Positions 1,459 to 51,935 of a stretch of 64,000 bases of DNA are shown piece after piece; positions within the stretch are counted from its first letter, which is position 1, and each line of letters begins with the position of its first letter. The notes beneath the pieces were generated by a model. It was not told where the DNA came from. It saw only the letters and a list, made by a program, of their open reading frames with translations, and did no database searches. Source of the stretch: Apostichopus japonicus (Eukaryota; Echinodermata; Holothuroidea; Aspidochirotida; Stichopodidae). Where the stretch lies: NCBI RefSeq assembly GCF_037975245.1, contig NC_092561.1, forward strand, positions 1,278,501 to 1,342,500, read 5' to 3'. Position numbers and translations under genes: made by a program.

Positions 1459-4400
1459 ATGGAGTACATATCATTTAGTTTGTTTCAACGCCGCGCCAAG
1501 CGTGTCTTATTTGTGATGATCATATGTTCCTGTACACTTTGGCTGGCATTCACATCGGTTAGTCGGGGTGAGTATTCTATATCAGTTTAACAAGTGTTTA
1601 AATATTTATGCTGGTATACGTAATGTATTCACTGTCTGTTGTATCACTGAATTGACTTAATATCCTAGTCATATGTACCGTGTACAGGCGGACGTAGCCA
1701 GAGATTTGAAAGAGGGCAGAGAGCAGAATTTTCAAAGGGAGCATTATTACACTTAACGGAGCACCATGATGTACAAAGTGCCCTCACGTTGCAGGAAATA
1801 AACAAAAATAAGTGAATTGTATTTACGTAGCAAACGAACTTTCAGGGCAAAGATTGAGAAGGGTCTTTTAGCTTCCTTCAACCTGAAAGAGGGCTTCAAT
1901 GATATTTCTTGCTTTTAGTTAAATTTTATATTTTGGGGTACTCAAAAGGGGGGGGGGGTGGGCGATCGCTACAATTGCCCCCCCCCCTCTCCCTGGGTAC
2001 GTCCCTGGTTCTAAATATATTATTCTAACGATGTTTCTTGAATTAGAATTATTATCATAATAGTTTTACACATATCAGCAGAACGTTTTGAGTTTTGAGA
2101 GGGTCATTTAATGGAGTCAGCACCACTGTAATTGTCGTTATATTAGGCTACTTCTTTTAAAGTTCATTTATACCAAACAGCATAGAATGTTTATCATAAC
2201 ACATCCAAGTGCGGATATATTTGCGCTAAGTAGTGACATCCCTGGGGTAAAACCTTTTGTCAGCCAAGTTGGCAAATCATAAAGTGACATCCGAAATCAA
2301 TTTGCATGATATTTGCTTCGTTAAAACTTTAAGGGGCCATATTGATGATAACTATCAAATTACATTAGGCCTAAACATGGAGTAAGTCTTTTATTTTCTT
2401 GCCGAGTAAAGCTGGGTTGTTTGTTTTCTTAATACGTAAATAAATGAACGGAATAATTGATAAGAAGTTAATAACAGGCAAAGCAATGATATATGAAAGA
2501 ATATTACAGTGAATGCATCAGATTTGTGAGTACGCACGGCCAATTAGTGAAATAAAGGGAAGTTACCATGTGCAGTAGGCTAGACTATCAACCTGGGAAT
2601 GACATGATATTACATAGCGACAAACGCCAAATATATATAGTAGTCAACAATCAGCAGTGGCGTGAGTTATGGTGGGGAGGGTGGCTCTCCATTTCTTTCA
2701 TGTCACCCCCACCTCCATCGTCGGTCGAAGGAAATAGTTACATTCTATCGGGGACTGGAATCACTCCTTGCACAATAGACATATACTTATATACCTAATT
2801 TATAAACTAAATATGCCACAGACTGCACCAATGCACCCTCCCCCCCCCCCTCATCAAACACACATACATGGAAATCGGCTTCAACGACCCCAGAGTCAGT
2901 CCACCTCCTTTCTTATTTCCCTGTTCTGCCACTGTCTCTTCAGTAACAGCTATAACTCACCCCTATCCCTGCACCCCAACCAACTATATAGCCACTACCG
3001 GCTTTGACATCATCTGCATGTCACGGATTACGTTAATACACGTTAATACACTATTCCGTGTGGTACGGTACGTATTCCATACTAAAGAATAGCAAATGGT
3101 TCTATACTAACCAAGCAAGTATTGTACATAACGCGCGTGAGTTGACCACACTGATCTGTACAGATCAGTGGTTGACCCGTGTCTATTGGACCGTTTGGAC
3201 GATGTGGGTTCGATAACTCCTACAGTTCTATTTACTCCACTTTCATTGCTTCTAAGTATTGTTCGTAGCCGATGTCCTTTCTTCAGCTATTGTCTGTAAT
3301 CCTGCCTAAATACAATGGCTTCTCTGAATAAGCCTAACAGCATAGACAATGCAGGCGACTATGGTAGGCCATACGGGAAATAATTGTTGATTAAATGTCT
3401 GTACGAATTAAAATTCTATTTAATACCAGCATTAAATAAAATTAATACCGGTATTAAATAGTATTATTACTGGCATTAAATAACATTAATACCGCCATTA
3501 AATAGACCATTTTTGTTTAGTTGGCACTGCAACTTTAGTTGCGCTATATGGTATAATATGCAATATTATTGACAAGCTTCCTTACATGTTTCCAGCTCTT
3601 GCGCCAGGCGCTAAACTTGCCCCGTTAGTTCATCCATATTCATTCAGGAGTCTTCCAAACTTTTCATAGCGTAATGCTCTTCGAAGATTAATCTAACGAT
3701 CGACAAGATTACGAGAATTTTACGTCTTTATCCTTAATCGATAATTTTTTTTTTACAAATAGTCATCGTACTAATGTGCAGAGTGGTACTATATTAACCG
3801 ATATTTCTGATCATTATCCTATTTTCTGCTGTTAGAAAAACTCTATTCATAAAACATAATTCTTCTAAGAGTGTTGGTTACTTTAATTATACTAGTGTCA
3901 GGATGAATTCGAGGTGAGCTGCTGCCTAAAGATCGGACAGATGTTATCAATCATCAGAATGCAGATTTTGCCTATTTCAAGTTTTCTGTATATAAAAAGA
4001 TTTACTCAGACGTTCATAAGGTTGCGTACACTAAAAATGCTTAGGATATGAATCATCTGGCTAGAAACAGCAGGTCTCTAACTATGGGCATGTTTGCATA
4101 TCACCTTCTGTATCTAAATTATTTGAACGTTTCACGTACAATAGAATATCTAATTTTATCCATAATCATATATATCCTAAACACATTTAAGTATGGCTTT
4201 CGTAAAGATTATTCTACAGATATGGCAGCAGTTAATCTATAGTCGATAAAATTGCAACAGCATTATACAAAATACTTTCAGAATAGGAATCCTCATTGAT
4301 CTCTCACAAGAGGTATTTGATACCAATGACTACATAATTCGTTGAAATAAACTGCTTATGGTTAACGAGGGGTCGCCTTTGACTGCATGGATTGCTAGTT

Positions 4401-7127
4401 ACTTGAGGAACAGTATGTCCCCAAGTTGGTGTCCCCCAAGGATCTATCATTGGGACACTATATTTCCTTTCTATATATTAATGATGTTCATTTAACATCC
4501 GAAAAAAGGCAAAATTTATTACCTTTGCTGATGATACAACATTTAGTTTTTTCCAAAACAAGCCATTTTTAAAGGTTGTAATTTTTACATGCAGAGGAGG
4601 AATTTAAAAATATTTTCACTTGGCTTAATGCAAACAAGTTATCTTGAAATATATATATTTTTGATAATGAAAAGGTACAATGAAAGTAATATTTCATTAA
4701 TTCTAATTGGGGGGCACGTCAATTATTCCTCATCATGCACAAAATTCCTGGGAAATTTTAATTGACAACAAACTGCATTGTAAAGAGTTACTTCTTACGT
4801 TGAAAACAATAGTCTGTGCAATTGGTATTATTTACAAAACCAAGAACTTTCTCTCTTCATAAAAAATGTGCTCATGATGCGCTGATCATTCTTTAAGTAC
4901 CCCCTCCTACCCCCCCCCCCCCGCCACGTCTTAATAATAGCTTATGACTATGGGGGAACGCCAACAACACTCATTTAAATAATCCGCATCCCATAGTGAA
5001 AAAGAAATAAGAAAAAGGGAACAGAAAGATTATCAGATATATTCACAGTGTTCCATACAATACCAATAGTGCACCTCTGTTTTAGGAGTCTGACATATTT
5101 TCGAGCTTTACAGTTATCAACTTGGGAGTTTTATGTATAAATGTTATCTCAGACTCTTACCAATATGGTCGAATTCGACCGCACTGGCCTAGCTCTTCCA
5201 CTGGTTAATATAATAAATGAATCAGGTACATTTTTATCCATTGTCTTTGAAACTCATCGCAGCAGTTAGCCAATAGTGTAATATTATTTATTTATTTACT
5301 ATTTTCACTATAATTTTGGTCATTCATCCCGCTTTGTGTCTTCTTTGTTTTTCATCAGAAACTCCCTTTACATTTCAAAATTTCCAGTGGGCAAACAGGT
5401 CTTTCACTAGACATAACAAGTTTAATATCGCATCATGGCGCAATAAGGATTTACCACAAATTACAGATAATTCGACAGATCCTTCTAACGCCGAGAAGGT
5501 ACCCTTCAATGACCGGCTCGTTCAAACTGATGCGGCAACTCCGTCTGAGAGATTGGTCGAGGACAACTTACTGAATAATCGCACAAAAACCAACGAGATG
5601 GATTTATCTGAAGTGGTAATCAAATTATCTTTCTATCTATCTAGTTGAATTTAATACCATGTAATATGTTGCAGATCGTAACTCGCTATATGGTTGTAAC
5701 GTCTATCAAGTTAATGGTATTTGAAATTCAAGAAACGTTCACAATAACATTTTAAACAAAGTCAATTGTTAGCTATAGCGCGATTCTCATTGGGTTTATG
5801 CTACCAAGTGTTATATCTAACTAAATCTGTTATAGGCGTAAAAATGTATCGTATAGTGTAGGCTACTGTAATGATATGCAAATACTGATTGCAAATATAT
5901 CCCGTTGTTCTATAACTGGGTGGTAGATGCCACGTACATGCATGTAGGGTAATAATGGGTTAGATTGATTAACCAAAATAACGAACTAATTATAAATTGG
6001 GATGAACACATGTATTTTCTTTATGGAACGCTTAAAATCTGATCTTGATGTTGTTAAAGTACAGTCCAGCAGTTTTAAAATGAATTTTGATGTAAAAATA
6101 TATGTACTGTCACAGTGAAATAACTGGTACAATAATAGGGAATTCATTTATTCTCTCTCTTTGTAGGCAGCCATGATGTATGTAGTAACATCGTGTCAAA
6201 ACTTGTTGATACTTATGGCCTTCATTGCCATTATGTTAAAACAATAAATTCTGACAGATAGAATATTGATTTTTGTTTTAATAATTCTAGTTTGAATGTG
6301 GTGAAACGTGCCAGGAAATAATTCAGCAACACAGACAGCGGATCCTACAAGATTCTTGTCATAAGAAACCTATCAACGGTCCGCCCTCTCTATGGAACAA
6401 AACTACAGGTCACTTAAATCCATCGGAAATTAGAAGACTTGGACATATATATCCTATACACAGTATGGGTGTTTTATTCTGTACTGTACCGAAAGGTGGG
6501 TCCAGTACATGGAAAAAACTCATGTTAGCCGCGATCGGACGCATTGAGACCCCCGAGAGTTACAAGGGAGACATTCACCCATTGTTTCACAAGGTTGTCA
6601 AATCTTTAGGTAAATATAGTGTTAACGAATCCGAAGAAATGCTCAAGACGTACAACAAGTTTGTTATCGTCAGAGACCCAATGCAACGGATGTTATCACT
6701 CTTTCTAGATAAAGTTGTTCATAAGCACAAATTAAAATTTAACGAAAGTCAGTTTGAGGGATTTTTAAAATTTATTCTGAAGAGTCCGAATAGATTTCAA
6801 TCAGTAGGATTCGATGAACATTGGACGCATACTTCGTATTTATGTTTACCTTGTGATATCAATTACAACTTCATTGGACGTTTGGAAACTTCTCAAAGAG
6901 ATACCAAATATATTTTTGATCATTTTCTTCAAAAAGCCAAAGGTAATTACAGTTTGACATTACGACCTACGATACATGAAACCAACAGCACAGCTCCCGA
7001 AAAGAAAAGTCATTATTTTTCACAAGTGGATCGGGAAATCCTCCACGCAATTGTAAAAAAATATGGTATAGATTACGACAATTTTGGATATGATAGAAAC
7101 ATGTATCGTCTTTTCAAAAACATATAG
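1459..7127 (+). CDS. Carbohydrate sulfotransferase, unit 1 (3 exons)
   Basis: Exons are 1459-1567, 5359-5615 and 6291-7127. Splice phases are 1 and 0, with GTGAGT and GTAATC donors and TCATCAG and TTCTAG acceptors. The joined protein has 400 residues. Residues 1-15 (MEYISFSLFQRRAKR) form a basic cytoplasmic tail and residues 16-34 a hydrophobic signal anchor, so it is a type II Golgi-type protein. Residues 37-122 are a stem with several N-x-S/T sites. Residues 123-400 are the catalytic domain, with the 5'-phosphosulfate loop VPKGGSSTWK (Lys190), the 3'-phosphate motif RDPMQRMLS (Arg250-Ser258), and the family block HW..TSYLCLPC..NYNFIGRLET (299-322). This matches the Sulfotransfer_2 family, which moves sulfate from PAPS to glycan hydroxyls in the Golgi. 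The acceptor sugar cannot be told from sequence; chondroitin, dermatan or HNK-1-type acceptors are used by relatives. Confidence 0.9.
1685..2008. mobile_element. Short terminal-inverted-repeat element in intron 1, unit 1
   Basis: The left end CAGGCGGACGTAGCCAG is the near reverse complement of the right end CTGGGTACGTCCCTG. The interior has no coding capacity and ends in G-run/C-run tracts. It looks like a non-autonomous DNA transposon. I found no clear target-site duplication. The element is present at the same place in all five units, so it predates the amplification. Confidence 0.5.
3149..3170. repeat. 22-bp perfect palindrome, unit 1 only
   Basis: The half-site CACTGATCTGT is followed directly by its reverse complement, and GTTGACC flanks both sides. 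Other units read straight through (GTGAGTTTACCCG) without it. It is a unit-1-specific insertion in intron 1 of unknown origin. Confidence 0.6.
3411..3508 (+). repeat. Minisatellite in intron 1 (period about 24 bp)
   Basis: About four imperfect copies of a unit like ATTAAATAGTATTAATACCG run in tandem. Equivalent tracts lie near 11040-11129, 19650-19740, 27281-27369 and 34910-35013. In unit 5 the first part is slightly expanded. Confidence 0.6.
3700..4885 (+). mobile_element. Decayed non-LTR retrotransposon fragment, unit 1
   Basis: Broken reading frames retain endonuclease-end-like LTDISDHYPIF and then reverse-transcriptase-like pieces: FKYGFRK.YSTDMAAVNL, a VPK.LSLGHYISFLYIND block (compare the usual VPQGSILGPLLFLIYIND) and a degraded ADDT stretch. 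This order fits the EN-RT junction of Jockey/CR1-like elements. Frameshifts and stops make it non-functional. It lies in sense orientation inside intron 1. Confidence 0.7.
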
Positions 7128-9135: not shown

Positions 9136-12100
9136 ATGGAGTACATATCATTTAGTTCGTTTCAATGCCGCGCCAAGCCTGTCTTATTTGTGATTATCAT
9201 ATGTTCCTGTACACTTTGGCTGGCATTCACATCGGTTAGTCGAGGTGAGTATTCTATATCAGTTTAACAAGTGTTTAAATATTTATGCTGGTATACGTAA
9301 TGTATTCACTGTCTGTTGTATCACTGAATTGACTTAATATCCTAGTCATGTACCGTGTACAGGCGGACGTAGCCAGAGATTTGAAAGAGGGCAGAGAGCA
9401 GAATTTTCAAAGGGAGCATTATTACACTTAACGGAGCACCATGATGTACAAAGTGCCCTCACGTTGCAGGAAATAAACAAATATAAGTGAATTGTATTTA
9501 CGTAGCAAACGAACTTTCAGGGCAAAGATTGAGAAGGGTCTTTTAGCTTCCTTCAACCTGAAAGAGGGCTTCAATGATATTTCTTGCTTTTAGTTAAATT
9601 TTATATTTTGGGGTACTCAAAAGGGGGGGGGTGGGCGATCGCTACAATTGCCCCCCCCCCTCTCCCTGGGTACGTCCCTGGTTCTAAATATATTATTCTA
9701 ACGATGTTTCTTGAATTAGAATTATTATCATAATAGTTTTACACATATCAGCAGAACGTTTTGAGTTTTGAGAGGGTCATTTAATGGAGTCAGCACCACT
9801 GTAATTGTCGTTATATTAGGCTACTTCTTTTAAAGTTCATTTATACCAAACAGCATAGAATGTTTATCATAACACATCCAAGTGCGGATATATTTGCGCT
9901 AAGTAGTGACATCCCTGGGGTAAAACCTTTTGTCAGCCAAGTTGGCAAATCATAAAGTGACATCCGAAATCAATTTGCATGATATTTGCTTCGTTAAAAC
10001 TTTAAGGGGCCATATTGATGATAACTATCAAATTACATTAGGCCTAAACATGGAGTAAGTCTTTTATTTTCTTGCCGAGTAAAGCTGGGTTGTTTGTTTT
10101 CTTAATACGTAAATAAATGAACGGAATAATTGATAAGAAGTTAATAACAGGCAAAGCAATGATATATGAAAGAATATTACAGTGAATGCATCAGATTTGT
10201 GAGTACGCACGGCCAATTAGTGAAATAAAGGGAAGTTACCATGTGCAGTAGGCTAGACTATCAACCTGGGAATGACATGATATTACATAGCGACAAACGC
10301 CAAATATATATAGTAGTCAACAATCAGCAGTGGCGTGAGTTATGGTAGGGAGGGTGGCTCTCCATTTCTTTCATGTCACCCCCACCTCCATCGTCGGTCG
10401 AAGGAAATAGTTACATTCTATCGGGGACTGGAATCACTCCTTGCACAATAGACATATACTTATATACCTAATTTATAAACTAAATATGCCACAGACTGCA
10501 CCAATGCACCCTCCCCCCCCCCCCCTCATCAAACACACATACATGGAAATCGGCTTCAACGACCCCAGAGTCAGTCCACCTCCTTTATTATTTCCCTGTT
10601 CTGCCACTGTCTCTTCAGTAACAGCATTAACTCACCCCTATCCCTGCACCCCAACCAACTATATAGCCACTACCGGCTTTGACATCATCTGCATGTCACG
10701 GATTACGTTAATACACTATTCCGTGTGGTACGGTACGTATTCCATACCAAAGAATAGCAAATGGTTCTATACTAACCAAGCAAGTATAGTACATAACGCG
10801 CGTGAGTTTACCCGTGTCTATTGTTCGACAACTCCCACAGTCCTACTCACTCCACTGTCAGTGCTTTCAAGTATTGTTCGTAGCCGCATAGACAATGACC
10901 ATTCTTCAGCTATTGTCTGTTCTACCTGCCTGAATACAATGGCTTCTCTGAATAAGCCTAACAGCATAGACAATGCAGACGACTATGGTAGGCCATACGG
11001 GAAATAATTGCTGATTAAATGTCTGTAAGAATTAAAGTTCTATTTAACACTAGCTTTAAATAAAATTAATACCGGCATTAAATAGTATTAATACTGGCAT
11101 GAAATAAAATTAATACCGCCATTAAATAGACCATCTTTGTTTAGTTGGCACTGCAACTTTAGTTGCCCTATGGTATAATATGCAATATTATTGACAAGCT
11201 TCCTTACACGTTTCCAGCTCTTGCGCCAGGCGCGAAACTTGCCCCGTTAGTTCATCCATCTTCATTCAGGAGTCTTCCAAACTTTTCATAGCGTAATAGT
11301 CTTCGAAGATTAATCTAACGATCGACAAGATTACGAGAATTTTACGTCTTTATCCTTAATCGATCATTTTTTTTACAAATAGTCATCGTACTAATGTGCA
11401 GAGTGGTACTATATTAACCGATATTTCTGATCATTATCCTATTTTCTGCTGTTAGAAAAACTCTATTCATAAAACATAATTCTTCTAAGAGTGTTGGTTA
11501 CTTTAATTATACTAGTGTCAGGATCACTTCGAGGTGAGCTGCTGTCTAAAGATCGGACAGATGTTATCAATCATCAGAATGCAGATTTTGCCTATTTCAA
11601 GTTTTCTGAGATTTACTCAGACGTTCATAAGGTTGCATACACTAAAAATGCTTAGGATATGAATCATCTGGCTAGAAACAGCAGGTCTCTAACTATGGGC
11701 ATGTTTGCATATCACCTTCTGTATCTAAATTATTTGAACGTTTCACGTACAATAGAATATCTAATTTTATCCATAATCATATATATCCTAAACACATTTA
11801 AGTATGGCTTTCGTAAAGGTTATTCTACAGATATGGCAGCAGTTAATCTATAGTCGATAAAATTGCAACAGCATTATACAAAATACTTTCAGAAATAGGA
11901 ATCCTCATTGATCTCTCACAAGAGGTATTTGATACCAATGACTACATAATTCGTTGAAATAAACTGCTTATGGTTAACGAGGGGTCGCCTTTGACTGCAT
12001 GGATTGCTAGTTACTTGAGGAACAGTATGTCCCCCAAGTTGGTGTCCCCCAAGGATCTATCATTGGGACACTATATTTCCTTTCTATATATTAATGATGT

Positions 12101-14646
12101 TCATTTAACATCCGAAAAAAGGCAAAATTTATTACTTTCGCTGATGATACAACATTTAGTTTTTTCCAAAACAAGCCTTTTTTAAAGGTTGTAATTTTTA
12201 CATGCAGAGGAGGAATTTAAAAATATTTTCACTTGGCTTAATGCAAACAAGTTATCTTGAAATATATATATTTTTGATAATGAAAGGTACAATGAAAGTA
12301 ATATTTCATTAATTCTAATTGGGGGCACGTCAATTATTCCTCATCATGCACAAAATTCCTGGGAAATTTTAATTGACAACAAACTGCATTGTAAAGAGTT
12401 ACTTCTTACGTTGAAAACATTAGTCTGTGCAATTGGTATTATTTACAAAACCAAGAACTTTCTCTCTTCATAAAAATGTGCTCATAATGCGCTGATCATT
12501 CTTTAAGTACCCCCCCCCCCCCCCGCCACGTCTTAATAATAGCTTATGACTATGGGGGAACGCCAACAACACTCATTTAAATAATCCGCATCCCATAATG
12601 AAAAAGAAATAAGAAAAAGGGAACAGAAAGATTATCAGATATATTCACAGTGTTCCATACAATACCAATAGTGCACCTCTGTTTTGGGAGTCTGACATAT
12701 TTTCGACCTTTACAGTTATCAACTTGGGAGTTTTATGTATAATGTTATCTCAGACTCTTACCAATACGGTCGAATTCGACCGCACTGGCCTAGCTATTCC
12801 ACTGGTTGATATAATAAATGAATCTGGTACACTTTTATCCATTGTCTTTGAAACTCATCGCAGCAGTTAGCCAGTAGTGTAATATTATTTATTTATTTAC
12901 TATTTTCATTATAATTTTGGTCATTCATCCCGCTTTGTGTCTTCTTTGTTTTTCATCAGAAACTTCCTTTACATTTCTAAATTTCCAGTGGGCAAACAGG
13001 TCTTTCACTAGACATAACAAGTTTAATATCGCATCATGGCGCAATAAGGAATTACCACAATTTACAGATAATTCGACAGGTCCTTCTAGCGACGATAAGG
13101 TACCCTTCAATGACCGGCTCGTTCAAACTGATGCGGCAACTCCCTCTGAGAGATTGGTCGAGGCCAACTTACTGACAAATCGTACAAAAACCAACGAGAT
13201 GGATTTTTCTGAAGTGGTAATCAAATTATCTATCTATATATCTATATAATTGAAATTGTAGTGAGTTGGAAAATCCAGAACATTGAAAAAAATGTCCAGA
13301 CTCCACCTGGATTCGAACCCGGGCCTCGCGCTCTATATGCAGACACCCTAACCACTAGGCTATGGACGCTGATTGTATTTCCAGAGGTTCGAAACCGGTA
13401 ATTCGACTATAGGCGGAGGGTTATACCAGTACACAAGTATTTCATTGTAGAACTTTCGTGTGGACCTATAATTATATACCTCAGTACTAATGTATAGCCT
13501 AACCGTACCCTACAAAGCATCGATTCATGTTTTTCCTGGAGATCATTTCCCCAAACTATGTTGTTAATTACAGTCCAGCATTAATTTTGATGTAAAAATA
13601 TTTGTATTGTCACAGTGAAACAACTGGTACAATAATATGGAATTAATTTATTCTCTCTCTCCACCTCTCTCTGTTTCTCTTTGTATATAGGCAGCCATGA
13701 TGTAGTAACATTGTGTCAAAACTTGTTGATACTTATGGCCTGCATTGTCATTATGTTAAAACAATAAATTCTGACAGATAGAATATTGATTTTGTTTTTA
13801 TAATTCTAGTTTGAATGTGGTGAAACGTGCCAGGAAATAATTCAGCAACACAGACAGCGGATCCTACAAGATTCTTGTCATAAGAAACCTATCAACGGTC
13901 CGCCCTCTCTATGGAACAAAACTACAGGTCACTTAAATCCATCGGAAATTAGAAGACTTGGACATATATATCCTATACACAGTATGGGTGTTTTATTCTG
14001 TACTGTACCAAAATGTGGATCCAGCACATGGAAAAAACTTATGTTAGCCGCGATTGGACGCATTGAGACCCCTCAGAGTTACAAGGGAGACATTCACCCA
14101 TTGTTTCGTAGGGTTGTCAAATCTTTAGGTAAATATAGTGCTGACGAATCCGAAGAAATGCTCAAGACGTACAAAAAGTTTGTTATCGTCAGAGACCCAA
14201 TGCAACGGATGTTATCACTCTTTCTTGATAAAGCCGTTGGAAAGCACGATTTAAAATTTAACGAAAGTCAGTTTGAGGGATTTTTAAAATTTATTCTGAA
14301 GAGTCCGAATAGATTTCAATCAGTAGGATTCGATGAACATTGGACGCATACTTCGTATTTATGTTTACCTTGTGATATCAATTACAACTTCATTGGACGT
14401 TTGGAAACTTCTCAAAGAGATACCAAATATATTTTTGATCATTTCCTTCAAAAAGCCAAAGGTAATTACAGTTTGACATTACGACCTACGAAACATGAAA
14501 CCAACAGCACAGCTCCCGAAAAGAAAAGTCAATATTTTTCACAAGTGAATCGGGAAATCCTCCACGCAATTGTAAAAAAATATGGTATAGATTACGACAA
14601 TTTTGGATATGATAGAAACATGTATCGTCTTTTCAAAAACCTATAG
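9136..14646 (+). CDS. Carbohydrate sulfotransferase, unit 2 (3 exons)
   Basis: Exons are 9136-9244, 12960-13216 and 13810-14646, giving 400 residues with the same splice phases as unit 1. The tail reads MEYISFSSFQCRAKP. This is the only copy with Cys at position 191 of the PAPS loop (VPKCGSSTWK rather than VPKGGSSTWK). Other differences are KAVGKHDL instead of KVVHKHKL and an Asn for Asp before REILH. Exon 2 belongs to class II (QFTDNSTGPSSDDKV...VEANLLTNRT), shared with unit 5. Intron 2 is short (593 bp) and contains a tRNA-derived SINE. No disabling change is seen, so it is probably functional. Confidence 0.9.
9360..9681. mobile_element. Short terminal-inverted-repeat element in intron 1, unit 2
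   Basis: Copy of the element at 1685-2008 with the same ends; only homopolymer lengths and a few bases differ. Confidence 0.5.
11320..12485 (+). mobile_element. Decayed non-LTR retrotransposon fragment, unit 2
   Basis: Same relic as in unit 1. It retains FKYGFRKGYSTDMAAVNL and an SPLTAWIASYLRN...LGHYISFLYINDVH stretch that stays open a little longer (11970-12185) because of a one-base difference. It lacks the TATATAAAA segment seen near 3990 in unit 1. Confidence 0.7.
13255..13400 (-). mobile_element. tRNA-derived SINE in intron 2, unit 2
   Basis: On the minus strand a tRNA-like head reads TAGCCTAGTGGTTAGGGTG (box A region, complement of about 13346-13364), then GGTTCGAATCC (box B, complement near 13309-13319), followed by a tail toward ACATTTTTTTCAATG and a GATA-rich end. 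It is preceded by a second B-box-like GGTTTCGAACC. It shares its whole length with copies at 36686 and 55968. The acceptor stem is not tRNA-quality, so it is a SINE and not a tRNA gene. Confidence 0.75.
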
Positions 14647-25360: not shown

Positions 25361-28300
25361 ATGGAGTACATATCATTTAGTTCGTTTCAATGCCGCGCCA
25401 AGCCTGTCTTATTTGTGATTATCATATGTTCCTGTACACTTTGGCTGGCATTCACATCGGTTAGTCGAGGTGAGTATTCTATATCAGTTTAACAAGTGTT
25501 TAAATATTTATGCTGGTATACGTAATGTATTCACTGTCTGTTGTATCACTGAATTGACTTAATATCCTAGTCATATGTACCGTGTACAGGCGGACGTAGC
25601 CAGAGATTTGAAAGAGGGCAGAGAGCAGAATTTTCAAAGGGAGCATTATTACACTTAACGGAGCACCATGATGTACAAAGTGCCCTCACGTTGCAGGAAA
25701 TAAACAAAAATAAGTGAATTGTATTTACGTAGCAAACGAACTTTCAGGGCAAAGATTGAGAAGGGTCTTTTAGCTTCCTTCAACCTGAAAGAGGGCTTCA
25801 ATGATATTTCTTGCTTTTAGTTAAATTTTATATTTTGGGGTACTCAAAAGGGGGGGGGTGGGCGATCGCTACAATTGCCCCCCCCCCCCTCTCCCTGGGT
25901 ACGTCCCTGGTTCTAAATATATTATTCTAACGATGTTTCTTGAATTAGAATTATTATCATAATAGTTTTACACATATCAGCAGAACGTTTTGAGTTTTGA
26001 GAGGGTCATTTAATGGAGTCAGCACCACTGTAATTGTCGTTATATTAGGCTACTTCTTTTAAAGTTCATTTATACCAAACAGCATAGAATGTTTATCATA
26101 ACACATCCAAGTGCGGATATATTTGCGCTAAGTAGTGACATCCCTGGGGTAAAACCTTTTGTCAGCCAAGTTGGCAAATCATAAAGTGACATCCGAAATC
26201 AATTTGCATGATATTTGCTTCGTTAAAACTTTAAGGGGCCATATTGATGATAACTATCAAATTACATTAGGCCTAAACATGGAGTAAGTCTTTTATTTTC
26301 TTGCCGAGTAAAGCTGGGTTGTTTGTTTTCTTAATACGTAAATAAATGAACGGAATAATTGATAAGAAGTTAATAACAGGCAAAGCAATGATATATGAAA
26401 GAATATTACAGTGAATGCATCAGATTTGTGAGTACGCACGGCCAATTAGTGAAATAAAGGGAAGTTACCATGTGCAGTAGGCTAGACTATCAACCTGGGA
26501 ATGACATGATATTACATAGCGACAAACGCCAAATATATATAGTAGTCAACAATCAGCAGTGGCGTGAGTTATGGTGGGGAGGGTGGCTCTCCATTTCTTT
26601 CATGTCACCCCCACCTCCATCGTCGGTCGAAGGAAATAGTTACATTCTATCGGGGACTGGAATCACTCCTTGCACAATAGACATATACTTATATACCTAA
26701 TTTATAAACTAAATATGCCACAGACTGCACCAATGCACCCTCCCCCCCCCCCCCCCTCATCAAACACACATACATGGAAATCGGCTTCAACGACCCCAGA
26801 GTCAGTCCACCTCCTTTCTTATTTCCCTGTTCTGCCACTGTCTCTTCAGTAACAGCTATAACTCACCCCTATCCCTGCACCCCAACCAACTATATAGCCA
26901 CTACCGGCTTTGACATCATCTGCATGTCACGGATTACGTTAATACACGTTAATACACTATTCCGTGTGGTACGGTAAGTATTCCCTATCAAAGAATAGCA
27001 AATGGTTCTATACTAACCAAGCAAGTATTGTATATAACGCGCGTGAGTTTACCCGTGTCTATTGTTCGACAACTCCCACAGTCCTACTCACTCCACTGTC
27101 AGTGCTTTCAAGTATTGTTCGTAGCCGCATAGACAATGACCATTCTTCAGCTATTGTCTGTTCTTCCTGCCTGAATACAATGGCTTCTCTGAATAAGCCT
27201 AACAGCATAGACAATGCAGACGACTATGGTAGGCCATACGGGAAATAATTGCTGATTAAATGTCTGTAAGAATTAAAATTCTATTTAACACTAGCTTTAA
27301 ATAAAATTAATACCGGCATTAAATAGTATTAATACTGGCATTAAATAACATTAATACCGCCATTAAATAGACCATCTTTGTTTAGTTGGCACTGCAACTT
27401 TAGTTGCCTTATGGTATAATATGCAATATTATTGACAAGCTTCCTTACACGTTTCCAGCTCTTGCGCCAGGCGCTAAACTTACCCCGTTAGTTCATCCAT
27501 CTTCATTCAGGAGTCTTCCAAACTTTCATAGCGTAATGCTCTTCGAAGATTAATCTAACGATCGACAAGATTACGAGAATTTTACGTCTTTATCCTTAAT
27601 CGATAATTTTTTTTTACAAATAGTCATCGTACTAATGTGCAGAGTGGTACTATATTAACCGATATTTCTGATCATTATCCTATTTTCTGCTGTTAGAAAA
27701 ACTCTATTCATAAAACATAATTCTTCTAAGAGTGTTGGTTACTTTAATTATACTAGTGTCAGGATGAATTCGAGGTGAGCTGCTGCCTAAAGATCGGACA
27801 GATGTTATCAATCATCAGAATGCAGATTTTGCCTATTTCAAGTTTTCTGTATATAAAAAGATTTACTCAGACGTTCATAAGGTTGCGTACACTAAAAATG
27901 CTTAGGATATGAATCATCTGGCTAGAAACAGCAGGTCTCTAACTATGGGCATGTTTGCATATCACCTTCTGTATCTAAATTATTTGAACGTTTCACGTAC
28001 AATAGAATATCTAATTTTATCCATAATCATATATATCCTAAACACATTTAAGTATGGCTTTCGTAAAGATTATTCTACAGATATGGCAGCAGTTAATCTA
28101 TAGTCGATAAAATTGCAACAGCATTATACAAAATACTTTCAGAATAGGAATCCTCATTGATCTCTCACAAGAGGTATTTGATACCAATGACTACATAATT
28201 CGTTGAAATAAACTGCTTATGGTTAACGAGGGGTCGCCTTTGACTGCATGGATTGCTAGTTACTTGAGGAACAGTATGTCCCCAAGTTGGTGTCCCCCAA

Positions 28301-30985
28301 GGATCTATCATTGGGACACTATATTTCCTTTCTATATATTAATGATGTTCATTTAACATCCGAAAAAAGGCAAAATTTATTACCTTTGCTGATGATACAA
28401 CATTTAGTTTTTTCCAAAACAAGCCATTTTTAAAGGTTGTAATTTTTACATGCAGAGGAGGAATTTAAAAATATTTTCACTTGGCTTAATGCAAACAAGT
28501 TATCTTGAAATATATATATTTTTGATAATGAAAAGGTACAATGAAAGTAATATTTCATTAATTCTAATTGGGGGGCACGTCAATTATTCCTCATCATGCA
28601 CAAAATTCCTGGGAAATTTTAATTGACAACAAACTGCATTGTAAAGAGTTACTTCTTACGTTGAAAACAATAGTCTGTGCAATTGGTATTATTTACAAAA
28701 CCAAGAACTTTCTCTCTTCATAAAAATGTGCTCATGATGCGCTGATCATTCTTTAAGTACCCCCTCCTACCCCCCCCCCCCCCGCCACGTCTTAATAATA
28801 GCTTATGACTATGGGGGAACGCCAACAACACTCATTTAAATAATCCGCATCCCATAGTGAAAAAGAAATAAGAAAAAGGGAACAGAAAGATTATCAGATA
28901 TATTCACAGTGTTCCATACAATACCAATAGTGCACCTCTGTTTTAGGAGTCTGACATATTTTCGAGCTTTACAGTTATCAACTTGGGAGTTTTATGTATA
29001 AATGTTATCTCAGACTCTTACCAATATGGTCGAATTCGACCGCACTGGCCTAGCTCTTCCACTGGTTAATATAATAAATGAATCAGGTACATTTTTATCC
29101 ATTGTCTTTGAAACTCATCGCAGCAGTTAGCCAATAGTGTAATATTATTTATTTATTTACTATTTTCACTATAATTTTGGTCATTCATCCCGCTTTGTGT
29201 CTTCTTTGTTTTTCATCAGAAACTCCCTTTACATTTCTAAATTTCCAGTGGGCAAACAGGTCTTTCACTAGACATAACAAGTTTAATATCGCATCATGGC
29301 GCAATAAGGATTTACCACAAATTACAGATAATTCGACAGATCCTTCTAACGCCGAGAAGGTACCCTTCAATGACCGGCTCGTTCAAACTGATGCGGCAAC
29401 TCCGTCTGAGAGATTGGTCGAGGACAACTTACTGAATAATCGCACAAAAACCAACGAGATGGATTTATCTGAAGTGGTAATCAAATTATCTTTCTATCTA
29501 TCTAGTTGAATTTAATACCATGTAATATGTTGCAGATAGTAACTCGCTATATGGTTGTAACGTCTATCAAGTTAATGGTATTTGAAATTCAAGAAACGTT
29601 CACAATAACATTTTAAACAAAGTCAATTGTTAGCTATAGCGCGATTCTCATTGGGTTTATGCTACCAAGTGTTATATCTAACTAAATCTGTTATAGGCGT
29701 AAAAATGTATCGTATAGTGTAGGCTACTGTAATGATATGCAAATACTGATTGCAAATATATCCCGTTGTTCTATAACTGGGTGGTAGATGCCACGTACAT
29801 GCATGTAGGGTAATAATGGGTTAGATTGATTAACCAAAATAACGAACTAATTATAAATTGGGATGAACACATGTATTTTCTTTATGGAACGCTTAAAATC
29901 TGATCTTGATGTTGTTAAAGTACAGTCCAGCAGTTTTAAAATGAATTTTGATGTAAAAATATATGTACTGTCACAGTGAAATAACTGGTACAATAATAGG
30001 GAATTCATTTATTCTCTCTCTTTGTAGGCAGCCATGATGTATGTAGTAACATCGTGTCAAAACTTGTTGATACTTATGGCCTTCATTGCCATTATGTTAA
30101 AACAATGCATTCTGACAGATAGAATATTGATTTTTGTTTTAATAATTCTAGTTTGAATGTGGTGAAACGTGCCAGGAAATAATTCAGCAACACAGACAGC
30201 GGATCCTACAAGATTCTTGTCATAAGAAACCTATCAACGGTCCGCCCTCTCTATGGAACAAAACTACAGGTCACTTAAATCCATCGGAAATGAGAAGACT
30301 TGGACATATATATCCTATACACAGTATGGGTGTTTTATTCTGTGCTGTACCGAAAGGTGGGTCCACTACCTGGAAAAGAATCATGTTAGCCGCGATTGGA
30401 CGCATTGAGACCCCAGAGAGTTACAAGGGAGACATTCACCCATTGTTTCGCAAGGTTGTCAAATCTTTAGGTAAATATAGTGTTAACGAATCCGAAGAAA
30501 TGCTCAAGACGTACAACAAGTTTGTTATCGTCAGAGACCCAATGCAACGGATGTTATCACTTTTTCTCGATAAAGCCGTTGGAAAGCACATATTAAAATT
30601 TAACGAAAGTCAGTTTGAGGGATTTTTAAAATTTATCCTGAAGAGTCCGAATAGATTTCAATCAGTAGGATTCAATGAACATTGGACGCATACTTCGTAT
30701 TTATGTTTACCTTGTGATATCAATTACAACTTCATTGGACGTTTGGAAACTTCTCAAAGAGATACCAAATATATTTTTGATCATTTTCTTCAAAAGGCCA
30801 AAGGTAATTACAGTTTGACATTTCATACGAAGCATGATACCAACAGCACAGCTCCCGAAAAGAAAAGTCATTATTTTTCACAAGTGGATCGGGAAATCCT
30901 CCACGCAATTGTAAAAAAATATGGTATAGATTACGACAATTTTGGATATGATAGAAACATGTATCGTCTTTTCAAAAACATATAG
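25361..30985 (+). CDS. Carbohydrate sulfotransferase, unit 4 (3 exons)
   Basis: Exons are 25361-25469, 29220-29476 and 30152-30985, giving 399 residues. Exon 1 is of the unit 2 type (SSFQCRAKP, VLFVIII) and exon 2/intron 2 of the unit 1/3 type. Exon 3 resembles unit 5: KGGSTTWKRIML, KAVGKHIL and LTFHTKHDTN in place of LTLRPTIHETN, a one-codon shortening. It is therefore a clear mosaic. The PAPS loop has Ser-Thr-Thr-Trp where other copies have Ser-Ser-Thr-Trp. No disabling change is seen. Confidence 0.9.
25587..25910. mobile_element. Short terminal-inverted-repeat element in intron 1, unit 4
   Basis: Copy of the element at 1685-2008, almost identical to the unit 1 version. Confidence 0.5.
27570..28735 (+). 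mobile_element. Decayed non-LTR retrotransposon fragment, unit 4
   Basis: Same relic, practically identical to units 1 and 3 across its length, including the stops and frameshifts. Confidence 0.7.
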
Positions 30986-33028
30986 TGAGGGCGCATAGTG
31001 TAGTGGTTGAATTATTATGATTTATAAAACAATGGATTTATATTACATTTACAATATCAACAACTTTCGTACGACCCACCTATTTACTAGAGTTCTTTGG
31101 AATTTTTCTTATACATTATCATTTATAAATTCAGAATTGCATTTAATTACAACAACAAAACTTCTTGCCTTTTAATGGAGACGGGTTTTTTAATTTGGGT
31201 TTGCTTCTTGAAATGACAGAAATTGATTTATTTTGAGGTTTTAATACGATCATTTAACTTAGTAGAGTTCTTCGGTATTTGTCTCATACATTATTAGTTA
31301 TAAATAATTTGCCTTAAATTACAAAAAAAAAGTGAGGACTTATACATAAAAGTCCAAAAAGCATAACACACGCATTCCGTATGTGACTAATTACAATCCA
31401 CTCATCAAATCCTTTATGAGCTCTATTAAACATTCCAATGAACAACGATACAGACTGGATTATGAACTATTTGGCTACAATAAAGATGTCAATTCCATGA
31501 AATGATTCATGTTTTAAAAGTTCTCATTATTTAAGCAACTCGCTAAACAATACTTTGATCAAGTAACTTTTTTAGTTTGAACCGTTATTTTTTATTTACT
31601 TATTATTTTTTTTTAAGTTATATTGCATCGACTTATTTCTTTACAAGCTGAGGGACAGGGTGGGGTTCACTCGGGCACCGATACATGGTTGTTCATGATG
31701 AAATCTGAACGATTCATTTAGAATAATGTTTACGTTCTTTTCAAAACACCGAGGGTCGTTGCTTATGCACATTTCATTTAGAATGTATCATTTGAGCTGT
31801 GATCGTTTGTTGTTCTTGTTCTTGTTGCTTTCGGTTAAATATCCTTTAAAATGAACAATTATTGTAATTGTTACATATACAGTTATTTCTCTAGGTTAAC
31901 AAGTCACTGTTTATAGTCACATATGCTTTCCAAGTGGACAGAGACGTAAGTATTACAGGTCACGTGACGTCTGTTAATCAGTTCAGCTGAATCAATCTTG
32001 AGACTTGTGAATCAGTCTGCGCTCTCATCAGGGAGCTGTTACTCTAACGTTACAGAAGCAGCTCCCTGCTCCCATTCTAAATCGTTCGGTTCGGTATAGT
32101 AGCCCTGGCTCCGACCATTGTGGTCGTATTTGTATCTGTTTTGTATTCGTATTTTATGCACTTTATGCATGTACGTATCGTTATGTGGGAATCTTCTTCG
32201 GTATTGAGACGTCGTTTTTAACCACTTTCGTTTAAGTGCATATGTTTCTCTTTTTAGTATTATTGAGGACTTCATGACGATGTTTTGTCTGTACCATGGC
32301 TGATTGTAGAAGTAGACTACGAAATCTACTCAGCGCTCGTTCTTTACTCGTTTATCTATGTGTTATATTCTCTGCAAGTACTAGCGAGATTCGAGCCTCG
32401 TCGTTACTAACACACAACCATCCAAGCCACATTTGTTTATATACCGCCACCGGTCCACAGTAGGGAATATTTGGGCGCCCCCACCGGAATCTTTAGACTG
32501 AGTTTGCGTTACAATATATATCATCCACCCCCACCCCCTTCCCCCAACCCCCATAAATTGTGGTTGGAAGAAGAAAGCCTATAGGGAAAGAATATTCCTG
32601 ATGATTCCCTTCTTGTAACATATATTTTATTTTCTTGATACTCGCTTCAATCGCCCCTAGAGAGACCATCAGCCTGGCTCCTCTATTTCCCTGCCCTTTC
32701 TCTTCACTGTAGCCAATACCAGTATACCCCCCTCCCCCTGCATTAGAAATAACAAATAACCTCACTCTCACACACGCTTCTGTAAACTGATAGAATCCGG
32801 AACAGGAAATGCATTGATCGATCGAATCAACGACTGCTTAGTTCTTGGTACATGTATACATGCAGGACGGACGTATATACATACATGTTTCTTCAATTGG
32901 GTAATAACTTGTTTAACAGATATGAGAAGAACTAAAACTAAAATTGAGAATTAAGGAAAGAGTGACATTATTTCAGTGCTTTCGATCATATTCGGTGATA
33001 TTTGAATCATAAAGTTATAGCTAAAACA
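30986..33028 (+). other. Spacer between units 4 and 5
   Basis: Unit 4 3' flank, relic at 31350-31505, then a class a flank that matches window positions 1-1458 almost base for base. No gene is seen. Confidence 0.6.
31350..31505 (+). pseudogene. Sulfotransferase C-terminal relic, unit 4
   Basis: Same relic with an uninterrupted frame, as in unit 1. Confidence 0.6.
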
Positions 33029-36000
33029 ATGGAGTACATATCATTTAGTTCGTTTCAATGCCGCGCCAAGCGTGTCTTATTTGTGATGATCATATGTTCC
33101 TGTACACTTTGGCTGGCATTCACATCGGTTAGTCGGGGTGAGTATTCTATATCAGTTTAACAAGTGTTTAAATATTTATGCTGGTATACGTAATGTATTC
33201 ACTGTCTGTTGTATCACTGAATTGACTCAATATCCTAGTCATATGTACCGTGTACAGGCGGACGTAGACAGAAATTTGAAAGAGGGCCGAGAGCAGAATA
33301 TTAAAAGGAGGCATTATTACACTTCACGGAGCACCATGATGTACAACGTGTCCTCACGTTGCAGGAAATAAACAATAATAAGTGAATTGTATTACGGAGC
33401 AGACGAACTTTCAGGGCAAAGATTGAGAAGGGTCTCTTAGCTTCCTTCAACCTGACAGAGGGCTTTAATGATATTTCTTGCTTTTAGTTAATTTTATTTT
33501 TCGGGGTACTCAAATTGGGGGGTGGGGTGGCGATCGCTCCAATTGCTCCCCCTCCCCCTGGGTACGTCCCTGGTTCTATATATATTATTCTAACGATGTT
33601 CCTTGAATTAGAATTATTATCATAATAGTTTTACACATATCAGCAGAACGTTTTGAGTTTTGAGAGGGTCATTTAATGAAGTCAGCACCACTGTAACTTG
33701 TAATTTTCGTTATATTAGGCTACTTCTTTTAAAGTTCATTTATACCAAACAGCATAGAATGTTTATCATAACTCATCCAAGTGCGGATATATTTGCGCTA
33801 AGTAGTGACATCCCTGGGGTAAAACCTTTTGTCAGCCAAGTTGGCAAATCATATAGTGACATCCGAAATCAATTTGCATGATATTTGCTTCGTTAAAACT
33901 TTAAGGGGCCATATTGATGATAACTATCAAATTATATTAGGCCTAAACATGGAGCAAGTCTTTTATTTTCTTGCCGAGTAAGCTGGGGTTGTTTGATTTC
34001 TTAATACGTAAATAAATGAACGGAATAATTGATAAGAAGTTAATAACAGGCAAAGCAATGATATTGAAAGAATATTACAGTGAATGCATCAGATTTGCGA
34101 GTACGCACGGCCAATTAGTGAAATAAAGGGAAGTTACCATGTGCAGTAGGCTAGACTATCAACCTGGGAATGACATGATATTACATAGCGACAAACGCCA
34201 AATATATATAGTAGTCAACAATCAGCAGTGGCGTGAGTAATGTTGGGGAGGGAAGGCTCTCCATTTCTTTCATGTCACCCCCACCTCCATCGTCAGTCGC
34301 ACAATAGACATATACTTATATACCTAATTTATAAACTAAATATGCCACAGACTGCACCAATGCACCCCCCCCCCCATCAAACACACCTATACATGGAAAT
34401 CGGCTTCAACCACCCCAGAGTCAGTCCACCTCCTTAATAATTTCCCTGTTCTGCCACTGTCTCTTCAGTAACAGCTATAACTCACCCCTATCCCTGCACC
34501 CCAACCAACTATATAGCCACTACCGGCTTTGACATCATCTGCATGTCACGGATTACGTTAATACACGTTAATACACTATTCCGTGTGGTACGGTACGTAT
34601 TCCATACTAAAGAATAGCAAATGGTTCTATACTAACCAAGCAAGTATTGTACATAACGCGCGTGAGTTTACTCGTGTCTATTTGACGATGTGGGTTCGAT
34701 AACTCCCACAGTTCTATTTACTCAACTGTCAGTGCTTTTAAGTATTGTTCGTAGCCGCATAGATAATGACCATTCTTCAGCTATTGACTGTAATCCTGCC
34801 TGAATACAATGGCTTCTCTGAATAAGCCTAACAGCATAGACAATGCAGACGACTATGGTAGGCCATACGGGAAATAATTGCTGATTAAATGTCTGTAACA
34901 ATTAAAATTCTGCCCGGTATTAATTCTATTTAATACCAGCATTAAATAAAATTAATACCGGCATTAAATAATATTAATACTGGCATTATATAGCATTAAT
35001 ACCGCCATTAAATAGACCATCTTTGTTCATAAGTTGCATACACTAAATGTAGGAATTTATATACTTACCTCAATCACTAAAAATGCTAAGAATATGAATC
35101 ATCTGGCTAGAAACAGCAGGTCTCTTACTATGGGCATGTTTTCATATAACCTTCTGTATCTAAATTATTTGAACGTTTTACGTACAATAGAATATCTAAT
35201 TTTATCCATTATCATATATATCCTAAACACATTTAAGTATGGCTTTCGTAAAGGTTATTCTACAGATATGGCAGCAGTCAATCTATAGTCGATAAAATTG
35301 CAACAGCATTATACAAAATACTTTCAGCAATAGGAATCTTCATTGATCATCCTCAAAAGGTATTTGATACCAATGACTACACAATTCGTTGAAATAAACT
35401 GCTTATGGTTAACGAGGGGTCGCCTTTGACTGCATGGATTGCTAGTTACTTGAGGAACGGAGTCCAGTATGTCCCCCAAGTTAGTGTCCCCAAGGATCTA
35501 TCATTGGGACACTATTTTTCCTTTCTATATATTCATGATATTCATTCAACATCCGAAAAAAGGCAAAATTTGTTCATTTTGCTGATGGTACAACATTTTA
35601 TATTTTCCAAAATAAGCCTATTTTAAAGGTTGTAACTTTTACATGCAGTGGAGGAATTTACAAATATTTTCACTTGGCTAAATGCAAACAAGTTATCTTT
35701 AAATATATATTTTTTATAATGAAAGGTACAATGAAAGTAATATTTTATTAATTCTAATTGGGGGCACGTCAATTATTCCTCATCATGCACAAAATTCCTG
35801 GGAAATTTTAATTGACAACAAACTGCATTGTAAAGAGTTACTTCTTACGTTGAAAACAATAGTCTGTGCAATTGGTATTATACGCCAACAACACTCATTT
35901 AAATAATCCGCATCCCATAATGAAAAAGAAATAAGAAAAAGGGAACAGAAAGATTATCAGAAATATTCACAGTGTTCCATACAATACCCATAGTGCACCT

Positions 36001-36563
36001 CTGTTTTAGGACTGTGGCATATTTTCGACCTTTACAGTTATCAACTTGAGAGTTTTATGTATAAAAGTTATCTCAGACTCTTACCAATACGGTCGAATTC
36101 GACCGCACCGGCCTAGCTATTCCACTGGTTAATATAATAAATGAATCAGGTACACTTTTATCCATTGTCTTTGAAACTCATCGCAGCAGTTAGCCATTAG
36201 TGTAATATTATTTATTTATTTACTATTTTCACTATAATTTTGGTCATTCATCCCGCTTTGTGCCTTCTTTGTTTTTCATCAGAAACTTCCTTTACATTTC
36301 AAAATTTCCAGTGGGCAAACAGGTCTTTCACTAGACATAACAAGTTCAATATCGCATCATGGCGCAATAAGGAATTATCACAATTTACAGATAATTCGAC
36401 CGGTCCTCCTAGCGCCGATAAGGTACCCTTCAATGACCGGCTCGTTCAAACTGATGCGGCAACTCCGTCTGAGAGATTGGTCGAGGCCAACTTACTGAAA
36501 AATCGTACAAAAACCAACGAGATGGATTTATCTGAAGTGGTAATCAAATCATCTATCTATCTA

Positions 36564-36650
<87 letters not shown>

Positions 36651-38603
36651 GTCTATCTGTCTGTCTATCTATCTATCTGCCTATCAGAACAGTGAAAAAA
36701 ATGTCCAGCCTCCACCGGGGTTCGAACCCGGGCCTCCGCTCTATATGCGGACACCCTAACCAGTAGGCTATGGACGCTGATTTTATGTTCAGAGGTTCGA
36801 AACCGGTAAGGAAGGTCGTAATTCGACTGTAGAGGGAGGTTTACACCAGTACACAAATATTTCATTGTAGAACTTTCGTGTGGACCTATATTTATAGACC
36901 TACTAATTTATAGCCCCATCGTACCTTACAAAGCATCATTTCATGTTTTTCCTTGAGATCATGTTCACTTAATCCCCCCACCCTCCTACATGGGAGTGTC
37001 TTCAACGACCCGAGGGCTAATCCCCTCCGTAATAAACTGATGGATCCACCACTCGGAAGTTTCGAACCCTGCAGGTCTATTGTTTGTATGCAAAACTAAC
37101 CATACCATGCTGTACCAGCACAAAGTTGAATTCAATACCATGTAATATGTTGCAGATCGTAACTCGCTGTATGGTTGTAACGTCTGTCAAGTTAATGGTA
37201 TTTGAAATTCAAGAAACGTTCACAATAACATTTTAAACAAAGTCACTTCTTAGCTAGCACGATTCTCATTGGGTTTATGCTAGTACTACGTGTTATATCT
37301 AACTTAATCTGTTATAGGCGTAGAAATGTATCGTATAGTGTAGGCTACTGTACTGGTATGCAAATACTGATTGCAAATATATCCCGTTGTTCTATAACTG
37401 GGTCGTAGATGCCACGTACATGCATGCAGGGTAATAATGGGTTAGATTGATTAACCAAAATAACGAACTAATTATAAACTGGAATGAACACATGTATTTT
37501 CTTTATGGAACGCTTAAAATATGACGTTGATGTTGTTAATTACAGTCCAGCAGTTTTAAAATTAATTTTGATGTAAAAATATATGTATTGTCACAGTGAA
37601 ATAACTGGTACAATAATAGGGAATTCATTTATTCTCTCTCTTTGTAGGCAGCCATGATGTATGTACTATGTAGTAACATTGTGTCAAAACTTGTTGATAC
37701 TTATGGCCTTCATTGCAATTATACAAAACAATAAAATCTGACAGATAGGATATTGATTTTCGTTTTTTATAATTCTAGTTTGAATGTGGTGAAACGTGCC
37801 AGGAAATAATTCAGCAACACAGACAGCGGATCCTACAAGATTCTTGTCATAAGAGACCTTTCAACGGTCCGCCCTCTCTATGGAACAAAACTACAGGTCA
37901 CTTAAATCCATCGGAAATTAGAAGACTTGGACATATATATCCTATACACAGTATGGGTGTTTTATTCTGTGCTGTACCGAAAGGTGGGTCCAGTACATGG
38001 AAAAGAATCATGTTAGCCGCGATCGGACGCATTGAGAACCCCGAGAGTTACAAGGGAGACATTCACCCATTGTTTCGTAAGGTTGTCAAATCTTTAGGTA
38101 AATATAGTGTTAACGAATCCGAAGAAATGCTCAAGACATACAACAAGTTTCTTTTCGTCAGAGACCCAATGCAACGGATGTTATCACTCTTTCTCGATAA
38201 AGCCGTTGGAAAGCACAAATTAAAATTTAACGAAAGTCAGTTTGAGGGATTTTTAAAATTTATTCTGAAGAGTCCGAATAGATTTCAACCAGTAGGATTC
38301 GATGAACATTGGACGCATACTTCGTATTTATGTTTACCTTGTGATATCAATTACAACTTCATTGGACGTTTGGAAACTTCTCAAAGGGATACCAAATATA
38401 TTTTTGATCATTTTCTTCAAAAGGCCAAAGGTAATTACAGTTTGACATTTCATACGAAGCATGAAACCAACAGCACAGCTCCCGAAAAGAAAAGTCAATA
38501 TTTTTCACAGGTGGATCGGGAAATCCTCCACGCAATTGTAAAAAAATATGGTATAGATTACGACAATTTTGGATATGGTAGAAACATGTATCAGCCCCTT
38601 TAG
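33029..38603 (+). CDS. Carbohydrate sulfotransferase, unit 5 (3 exons)
   Basis: Exons are 33029-33137, 36283-36539 and 37779-38603, giving 396 residues. The core motifs are intact: VPKGGSSTWKRIM, then FLFVRDPMQRMLS, then HW..TSYLCLPC. The C-terminus differs. A 19-bp insertion (CAGCCCCTTTAGATAATAT) after the ATGTAT codons replaces the usual RLFKN(I/L) end with QPL and stops early, so only the last few residues are lost. Intron 2 is the longest (1239 bp). It contains both the SINE-linked segment of unit 2 and the segment found in units 1, 3 and 4, with a TCTG microsatellite right after exon 2. This copy is the most diverged and ends the array. Confidence 0.88.
33255..33573. mobile_element. Short terminal-inverted-repeat element in intron 1, unit 5
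   Basis: Copy of the element at 1685-2008 with more substitutions. The sharp rise in divergence from unit 1 begins at about its left end. Confidence 0.5.
35030..35880 (+). mobile_element. Truncated retrotransposon fragment, unit 5
   Basis: It keeps FKYGFRKGYSTDMAAVNL and SPLTAWIASYLRN...YVPQVSVPKDLSLGHY, the latter closer to the normal VPQG box than in other units. Both ends are deleted relative to the other units (missing the upstream endonuclease-like part and the part after the IGIIY-like stretch near 35880). Confidence 0.7.
36552..36682 (+). repeat. (TCTG)n/(TATC)n microsatellite in intron 2, unit 5
   Basis: About 130 bp of TCTG repeats bounded by TATC repeats begins roughly 12 bp after the exon 2 donor. 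Units 1, 3 and 4 have only a short TCTATCTATC stretch there and unit 2 a short TATCTATATATC. Confidence 0.9.
36686..36808 (-). mobile_element. tRNA-derived SINE in intron 2, unit 5
   Basis: Minus-strand SINE of the same family as 13255-13400, with box B GGTTCGAACCC (complement near 36718-36729) and a box A region (complement near 36758-36771). Its 3' end runs into the TCTG/TATC microsatellite, consistent with a simple-repeat tail. Confidence 0.75.

Positions 38604-42258: not shown

Positions 42259-51935
<9,677 letters not shown>

Follow-up and report, generated by a model that had tools for sequence, protein, structure and literature searches.

A tandem array of likely carbohydrate sulfotransferase genes in the sea cucumber Apostichopus japonicus, with signs of unequal crossing-over

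A stretch of 64,000 nucleotides in the genome of the sea cucumber Apostichopus japonicus (C1:1278501-1342500, C1 being contig NC_092561.1 of a 671.58-Mb assembly; this whole stretch is referred to as the window) contains repeated genes that resemble carbohydrate sulfotransferases, which raises the question of what these genes encode, how the copies arose and why so many of them are present. A pattern for NGIWYamide, a neuropeptide that marks sea cucumbers, with its cleavage site has five matches in the assembly, clustered within 180 bases of C5, against 0 in the reversed control, in keeping with a sea cucumber host. Taking enzyme class and array mechanism together, the locus is probably a sea cucumber sulfotransferase gene repeated in tandem, in an array that is young and recombining.

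The array and its gene models

A sequence-only reading of the window had proposed five near-identical, complete three-exon genes with shared splice phases at 1459..38603, and this holds for all five: the intact genes span exactly 1459-38603 on the + strand, each starts with ATG, has no internal stop and ends in TAG (5/5), and the introns of each are GT-AG, with phase 1 at the exon 1/exon 2 junction and phase 0 at the exon 2/exon 3 junction (5/5). The near-identity extends from protein to DNA, with catalytic-exon proteins of units 1, 2, 3 and 5 that are 93-95% identical to that of unit 4, and with blocks of 5-13 kb at 94-97% when the window is aligned with itself, a duplication far beyond chance. 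The window genes are the following (all coordinates are those of the window).

1459..1567, + strand: unit 1 (g) exon 1, N-terminus with a hydrophobic, signal-anchor-like segment; ATG, open frame, GTGAGT donor, phase 1
5359..5615, + strand: unit 1 (g) exon 2, stem; CAG acceptor, GTAATC donor
6291..7127, + strand: unit 1 (g) exon 3, catalytic domain; PF03567 E 2.5e-39; TTCTAG acceptor, TAG stop
9136..9244, + strand: unit 2 (h) exon 1
12960..13216, + strand: unit 2 (h) exon 2
13810..14646, + strand: unit 2 (h) exon 3, catalytic domain; PF03567 E 1e-38; Cys for Gly in the loop of the 5' nucleotide-binding motif (PKCGSSTWK)
17822..17930, + strand: unit 3 (i) exon 1
21588..21844, + strand: unit 3 (i) exon 2
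22520..23356, + strand: unit 3 (i) exon 3, catalytic domain; PF03567 E 1.9e-39
25361..25469, + strand: unit 4 (j) exon 1
29220..29476, + strand: unit 4 (j) exon 2
30152..30985, + strand: unit 4 (j) exon 3, catalytic domain; PF03567 E 9.1e-39
33029..33137, + strand: unit 5 (k) exon 1
36283..36539, + strand: unit 5 (k) exon 2
37779..38603, + strand: unit 5 (k) exon 3, catalytic domain; PF03567 E 3.2e-39; last unit of the array, with an altered C-terminal end that is diverged and slightly shorter than in the other window units

The local tandem amplification proposed from the window turned out to be larger than five genes. A search of the assembly with the catalytic-exon protein found 11 near-identical copies on the + strand at C1:1237089-1317094, each with an open frame, and a search with exon 2 likewise found 11; mapping of the exons, upstream DNA included, delimits 11 units (a-k) on a single strand over C1:1234647-1317103, about 82 kb, of which g-k are window units 1-5. 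The catalytic exon is open in 11/11 units, and the splice acceptors and donors of all modelled exons are intact. Ten of the 11 units are complete as modelled, with all three exons; the exception is unit a, for which the 29.6 kb upstream contain two intron 1 fragments (88-89% matches) but no recognisable exon 1. Intron 2 of unit a, the outermost unit, also carries a short tandem repeat of about 1.1 kb (C1:1234914-1236077) that matches itself in 8-bp steps. An additional exon 1, together with its upstream region, is found at C1:1239965, ahead of unit b, where exon 1 thus occurs twice in succession (C1:1239965-1240073 and C1:1241758-1241866); both copies are open and followed by a GTGAGT donor, and they could act as alternative first exons.

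Enzyme family and catalytic features

All five window catalytic exons match PF03567 (Sulfotransfer_2), a carbohydrate-acting family, with E values of 1e-38 to 2e-39 (134-137 bits), and in the genome search 11/11 array units exceed the curated cut-off of 22 bits, in agreement with the carbohydrate sulfotransferase identity first suggested. The encoded proteins are laid out as a hydrophobic exon 1, in which basic residues precede the hydrophobic stretch, a stem exon and a catalytic domain contained in one exon. Binding of the sulfate donor 3'-phosphoadenosine 5'-phosphosulfate (PAPS) involves the Lys of a 5' motif and the Arg and Ser of a 3' motif. In a 31-row alignment (A1) of the five window catalytic exons with 26 PF03567 relatives from the same genome, the PAPS-site residues Lys68, Arg128 and Ser136, together with His177-Trp178, are invariant in 31/31 rows, and the PAPS-binding motifs that had been called intact in the window genes do retain all three binding residues. 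The motifs were compiled for all 11 units, and the 5' motif of the array reads PK(G/C)GS(S/T)TWK(K/R). A search by sequence for a relative of solved structure, made with one catalytic domain and with the 31-row profile, returned 0 matches at E up to 1.

The array shares its Sulfotransfer_2 domain with the CHST8-CHST14 group (the HNK-1, GalNAc-4-O, and chondroitin and dermatan 4-O enzymes) and, like that group, has a 5' followed by a 3' PAPS motif and an HW...C.PC...Y.FIG..E core; its layout may also be the type II one of that group, in which a short N-terminal tail and a hydrophobic anchor precede the stem and a lumenal catalytic domain. It is about 24-28% identical to human CHST8, CHST10, CHST11 and CHST14. 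The 5' motif consensus of CHST8-14 is PK-x-x-C-(T/S)-N-W-K-R, from which the array departs in lacking the Cys and Asn, with the Lys and WK kept; PK(V/A)(A/G)C(T/S)NWKR is common among the other relatives, whereas the array has PK(G/C)GS(S/T)TWK. The consensus is not strict, as the human CHST10 sequence and several relatives in the alignment also deviate from it. Because of this departure in the 5' motif, the array proteins are said here to work like CHST8-14 and are classed under PF03567 only.

On these sequence features, the array product is likely to be a PAPS-dependent carbohydrate sulfotransferase. In the manner of the type II Golgi carbohydrate sulfotransferases (CHST8-14), the enzyme of each unit would transfer sulfate from PAPS to an extracellular glycan; it would presumably be active and reside in the Golgi, and its acceptor would most likely be a sulfated glycan of the body wall.

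Recombination history

The array would have grown and been homogenised by unequal crossing-over and gene conversion among units of about 7.6 kb, and the clearest trace of this is found in three units that lie on the chromosome in the order e, f, g. Units e and g differ at 121 ungapped sites; in unit f the first 55 of these all match g and the remaining 66 all match e, and the switch falls in C1:1272408-1273513, an interval that starts at the end of exon 1 and reaches into intron 1. Before the switch, f and g are separated by 0 indel columns; after it, f departs from e in 5. One unequal crossing-over of neighbours would be expected to leave such a hybrid between e and g, g-derived in its 5' part and e-derived in its 3' part. 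What weighs against this history is that unit f has 0 substitutions of its own relative to g before the switch and to e after it, which a join made during assembly could explain. From the allele pattern we conclude that some part of the array, if not more, owes its origin to unequal crossing-over, with the proviso that unit f, which lies outside the window, is not such a join.

Blocks spanning several units also recur with about 99% identity (17.5 kb at 99.2%, 20.4 kb at 99.1%, 15.3 kb at 99.3%). The mosaic seen in unit c is less clear-cut: its 5' end mostly resembles h and its further parts resemble d, with many switches, so that gene conversion fits this unit as well. In most units one segment has been kept nearly uniform.

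3709..6208, + strand: homogenised core (on unit 1), offsets +2250 to +4749 from the ATG; covers exon 2, with the 3' half of intron 1 before it and most of intron 2 after it

Within this core of about 2.5 kb, the mean pairwise difference among eight of the ten complete units (b-g, i and j) is 0-0.21% per 250 bp, compared with flanks that are mostly 1-4% different (one interval at 7.8% and one at 0.5%). The crossover history predicts copy-number variation between animals of this farmed species, which could be compared with their sulfation level.

Selection and the reason for the copies

Over the ten complete genes, the ratio of nonsynonymous to synonymous change per site (pN/pS) is 0.56 overall and 0.45 in exon 3, and among the distinct codon changes, 55 are nonsynonymous (957 sites) and 29 synonymous (243 sites; Fisher p 0.0017). 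Several points weigh against a firm reading of constraint: pN/pS is about 1.1 in exons 1 and 2 (on small counts), for which reason constraint is claimed for exon 3 only; unit pairs tested alone give p values of 0.007, 0.08, 0.09 and 0.12, three of the four missing 0.05; and pairs within a converting array are not independent, so that the selection figures are rough. The data fit mild constraint on the catalytic exon, and positive selection is unsupported, the replacement changes not being in excess. When the exons are joined, the ten complete genes yield nine kinds of protein, those of units b and i being identical.

The likely benefit of the copies would be more of one enzyme type, with modest variation in the catalytic exon, and dosage is the reason for the copies that we tentatively favour. 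A serious rival, to which we assign a real but minority chance, is neutral copy-number drift, whereby the array is real but is a by-product of repeat-mediated recombination and the extra copies bring no selected benefit; it competes with the dosage step only and leaves the enzyme class and the crossing-over untouched. Drift draws strength from the dosage benefit being one that we infer, from the seemingly unconstrained exons 1 and 2 and from the evident ease of crossing-over in the array, but it sits less comfortably with catalytic exons that are open in every unit, with the intact splice sites of all modelled exons and with the mild constraint on exon 3, though a few active units could account for the last of these.

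Besides dosage and drift, the copies could have been retained for differing acceptor or position specificities, an explanation that we consider doubtful. The nine distinct proteins from ten complete genes would suit it, as would variation in the loop of the 5' PAPS motif (G/C and S/T), in the stretch right after the 3' PAPS motif (VVHKHKL, AVGKHIL or AVGKHDL) and in a C-terminal loop (LRPTIHE or FHTKHD), yet such diversification is at odds with the exon 3 pN/pS of about 0.45 and its lack of excess replacement change, with the single protein made by units b and i and with the recent homogenisation of the 2.5-kb core.

Divergence between units and the assembly

Whole-unit differences range from 0.22 to 7.35% among the ten complete units. 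The five window units are 1.79-7.35% apart in pairwise comparison over whole units, the closest pair being g and i, while the pairs d-g, c-e, b-i, c-j and e-j, which lie outside the window or across its edge, differ by only 0.2-0.35%. Private substitutions number 186 in unit h and 194 in unit k, against 0-8 in the other eight complete units. The 137.5 kb examined around the array contains 0 N, and the longest exact repeat in the array region is 4,752 bp; PMC10344927 describes an Apostichopus japonicus assembly made with hifiasm from high-fidelity (HiFi) reads of mean length 14.7 kb. As this repeat is well below the mean HiFi read and the window units are divergent, an assembly artefact is unlikely for these units, and the case in which the assembly duplicated one unit to give the five in the window is disfavoured by the 1.79-7.35% divergence and the length of the longest exact repeat; the multi-unit array of the sequence-only reading is supported on this point. 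That some part of the array is nonetheless an artefact, with haplotypes or repeats placed in tandem, is improbable, for although unit f without a substitution of its own and the five pairs of near-identical units would suit it, the gap-free sequence, the short exact repeat relative to the reads, the divergence of the window units and the private substitutions of h and k speak against it.

Relatives and the short-spacer branch

The genome holds at least 76 PF03567 matches, of which 11 are the array, the largest cluster among the matches listed. The array units form one group, with support of 98/99 in a tree with all 11 units and 99/99 in a tree with 4 units. Two relatives on the same contig (C1:1638818 and C1:3043267), with 45-47% identity, join the array at 100/100 in both trees, and six further genes join these at 100/97 in the 11-unit tree, in which the bootstrap was unsettled, and at 91/99 in the other. 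A CxxxC motif marks the beginning of the catalytic exon in 8/8 non-array genes of this subfamily and in array unit g, the unit tested, and by the same pattern is absent from the other 31 genes examined; in 8/8 of the non-array genes, as in the array, AG lies directly ahead of the codon two places before the first Cys. The subfamily defined by the trees thus agrees with marks that are independent of them, and by its sequence the array belongs to a subfamily marked by the CxxxC motif and a common intron position. Exons 1 and 2 were sought in four relatives (L017-L020), where nothing better than E 0.76 was found.

A phylogeny against CHST8-14 had been suggested for the joined proteins, and of that group human CHST8, CHST10, CHST11 and CHST14 were covered here. 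Neither CHST8 nor CHST10 nor CHST11 falls together with the array, and CHST14 pairs with another gene of the same genome (L030 on C14) at 100/100, which speaks against CHST14 orthology of the array. Judged by these four enzymes, the array proteins look like a divergent branch separate from the CHST14 orthologue.

In A1, the HW pair is separated from a conserved Lys that follows the 3' PAPS motif by a spacer of 35 residues in each of the five window units and in both C1 relatives (7/7), in contrast to 49-73 residues in the other 24 relatives. The stretch after the 3' PAPS motif may help to hold the acceptor, and a changed acceptor in the short-spacer branch is therefore plausible. A further-reaching proposal, which we regard as unlikely, is that the array and the two C1 relatives form a sea-cucumber-specific branch in which the acceptor-side stretch has been shortened and the enzymes have specialised for an acceptor foreign to those of vertebrates. 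If it were true, the acceptor could be, for example, the fucose of sulfated fucan or that of the fucose branches on fucosylated chondroitin sulfate, and the array would be one of sea cucumber fucose sulfotransferases whose copy number differs between individuals.

Comparison with sea cucumber sulfotransferases described previously

The A. japonicus body wall contains sulfated fucans and fucosylated chondroitin sulfates, as stated in PMC13024229, and we infer both as possible products of the array. According to PMC10213396, the key genes of fucosylated chondroitin sulfate synthesis were still unknown in 2023, and an 11-copy array with a distinctive catalytic branch offers a short, concrete candidate list for glycan sulfation. 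The same paper reports significant expansion of CHST11, CHST13 and CHST15 in Stichopus monotuberculatus (13, 10 and 22 copies, respectively) and connects these to fucosylated chondroitin sulfate. That expansion resembles the array in being from a sea cucumber, in the same broad enzyme class and in many copies; unlike the present analysis, the accessible part of PMC10213396 does not describe a tandem array or a recombination history. PMC13228809 cites the Stichopus expansion and cautions that only a handful of such expansions are confirmed.

In PMC13024229, CST15, CST14, CST11 and CST13 are reported to be upregulated when A. japonicus received an inhibitor mixture while exposed to diesel. The sulfotransferase gene identifier in the part of that paper available is that of CHST15 on Chr18; the identifiers given there do not reach the array, and the induction is therefore not attributable to the array genes. 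A limited search of titles and abstracts found no published description of this tandem array. Sulfotransferase expansion in sea cucumbers is thus already known in kind, and the new elements are the precise array, the record of crossing-over in it and the branch with the short spacer.

Intronic and neighbouring features

Intron 1 of unit 1 contains, at about 4430-4560 on the + strand, a segment that resembles a broken reverse-transcriptase fragment by eye only. Matches resembling tRNA lie on the - strand at 13298-13369 and 36707-36777, in intron 2 of units 2 and 5, and at 56017-56089, and are perhaps tRNA-derived repeats.

About 20 kb upstream of the array, two open reading frames (ORFs) lie within C1:1210560-1214127: the first encodes an AIG1 (GIMAP-type) GTPase domain, and the second, after it, has a weak AIG1 tail match (26.9 bits, just below the cut-off) and a Hint (hedgehog/intein-type) module. 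The pair could be a single immune GTPase gene that includes a self-processing domain, a combination that may be known already in the literature.

Downstream of the array, the + strand at window positions 42208-51935 carries exons of a rhodopsin-like G protein-coupled receptor, with 7tm_1 strong in two ORFs and under the cut-off in the first; the best solved match of the middle ORF is the substance-P receptor (E 6.7e-9), with many class A receptors nearly as close. An arylesterase/paraoxonase-like exon (PF01731, E 4e-7) lies on the - strand at 60718-61053 of the window.

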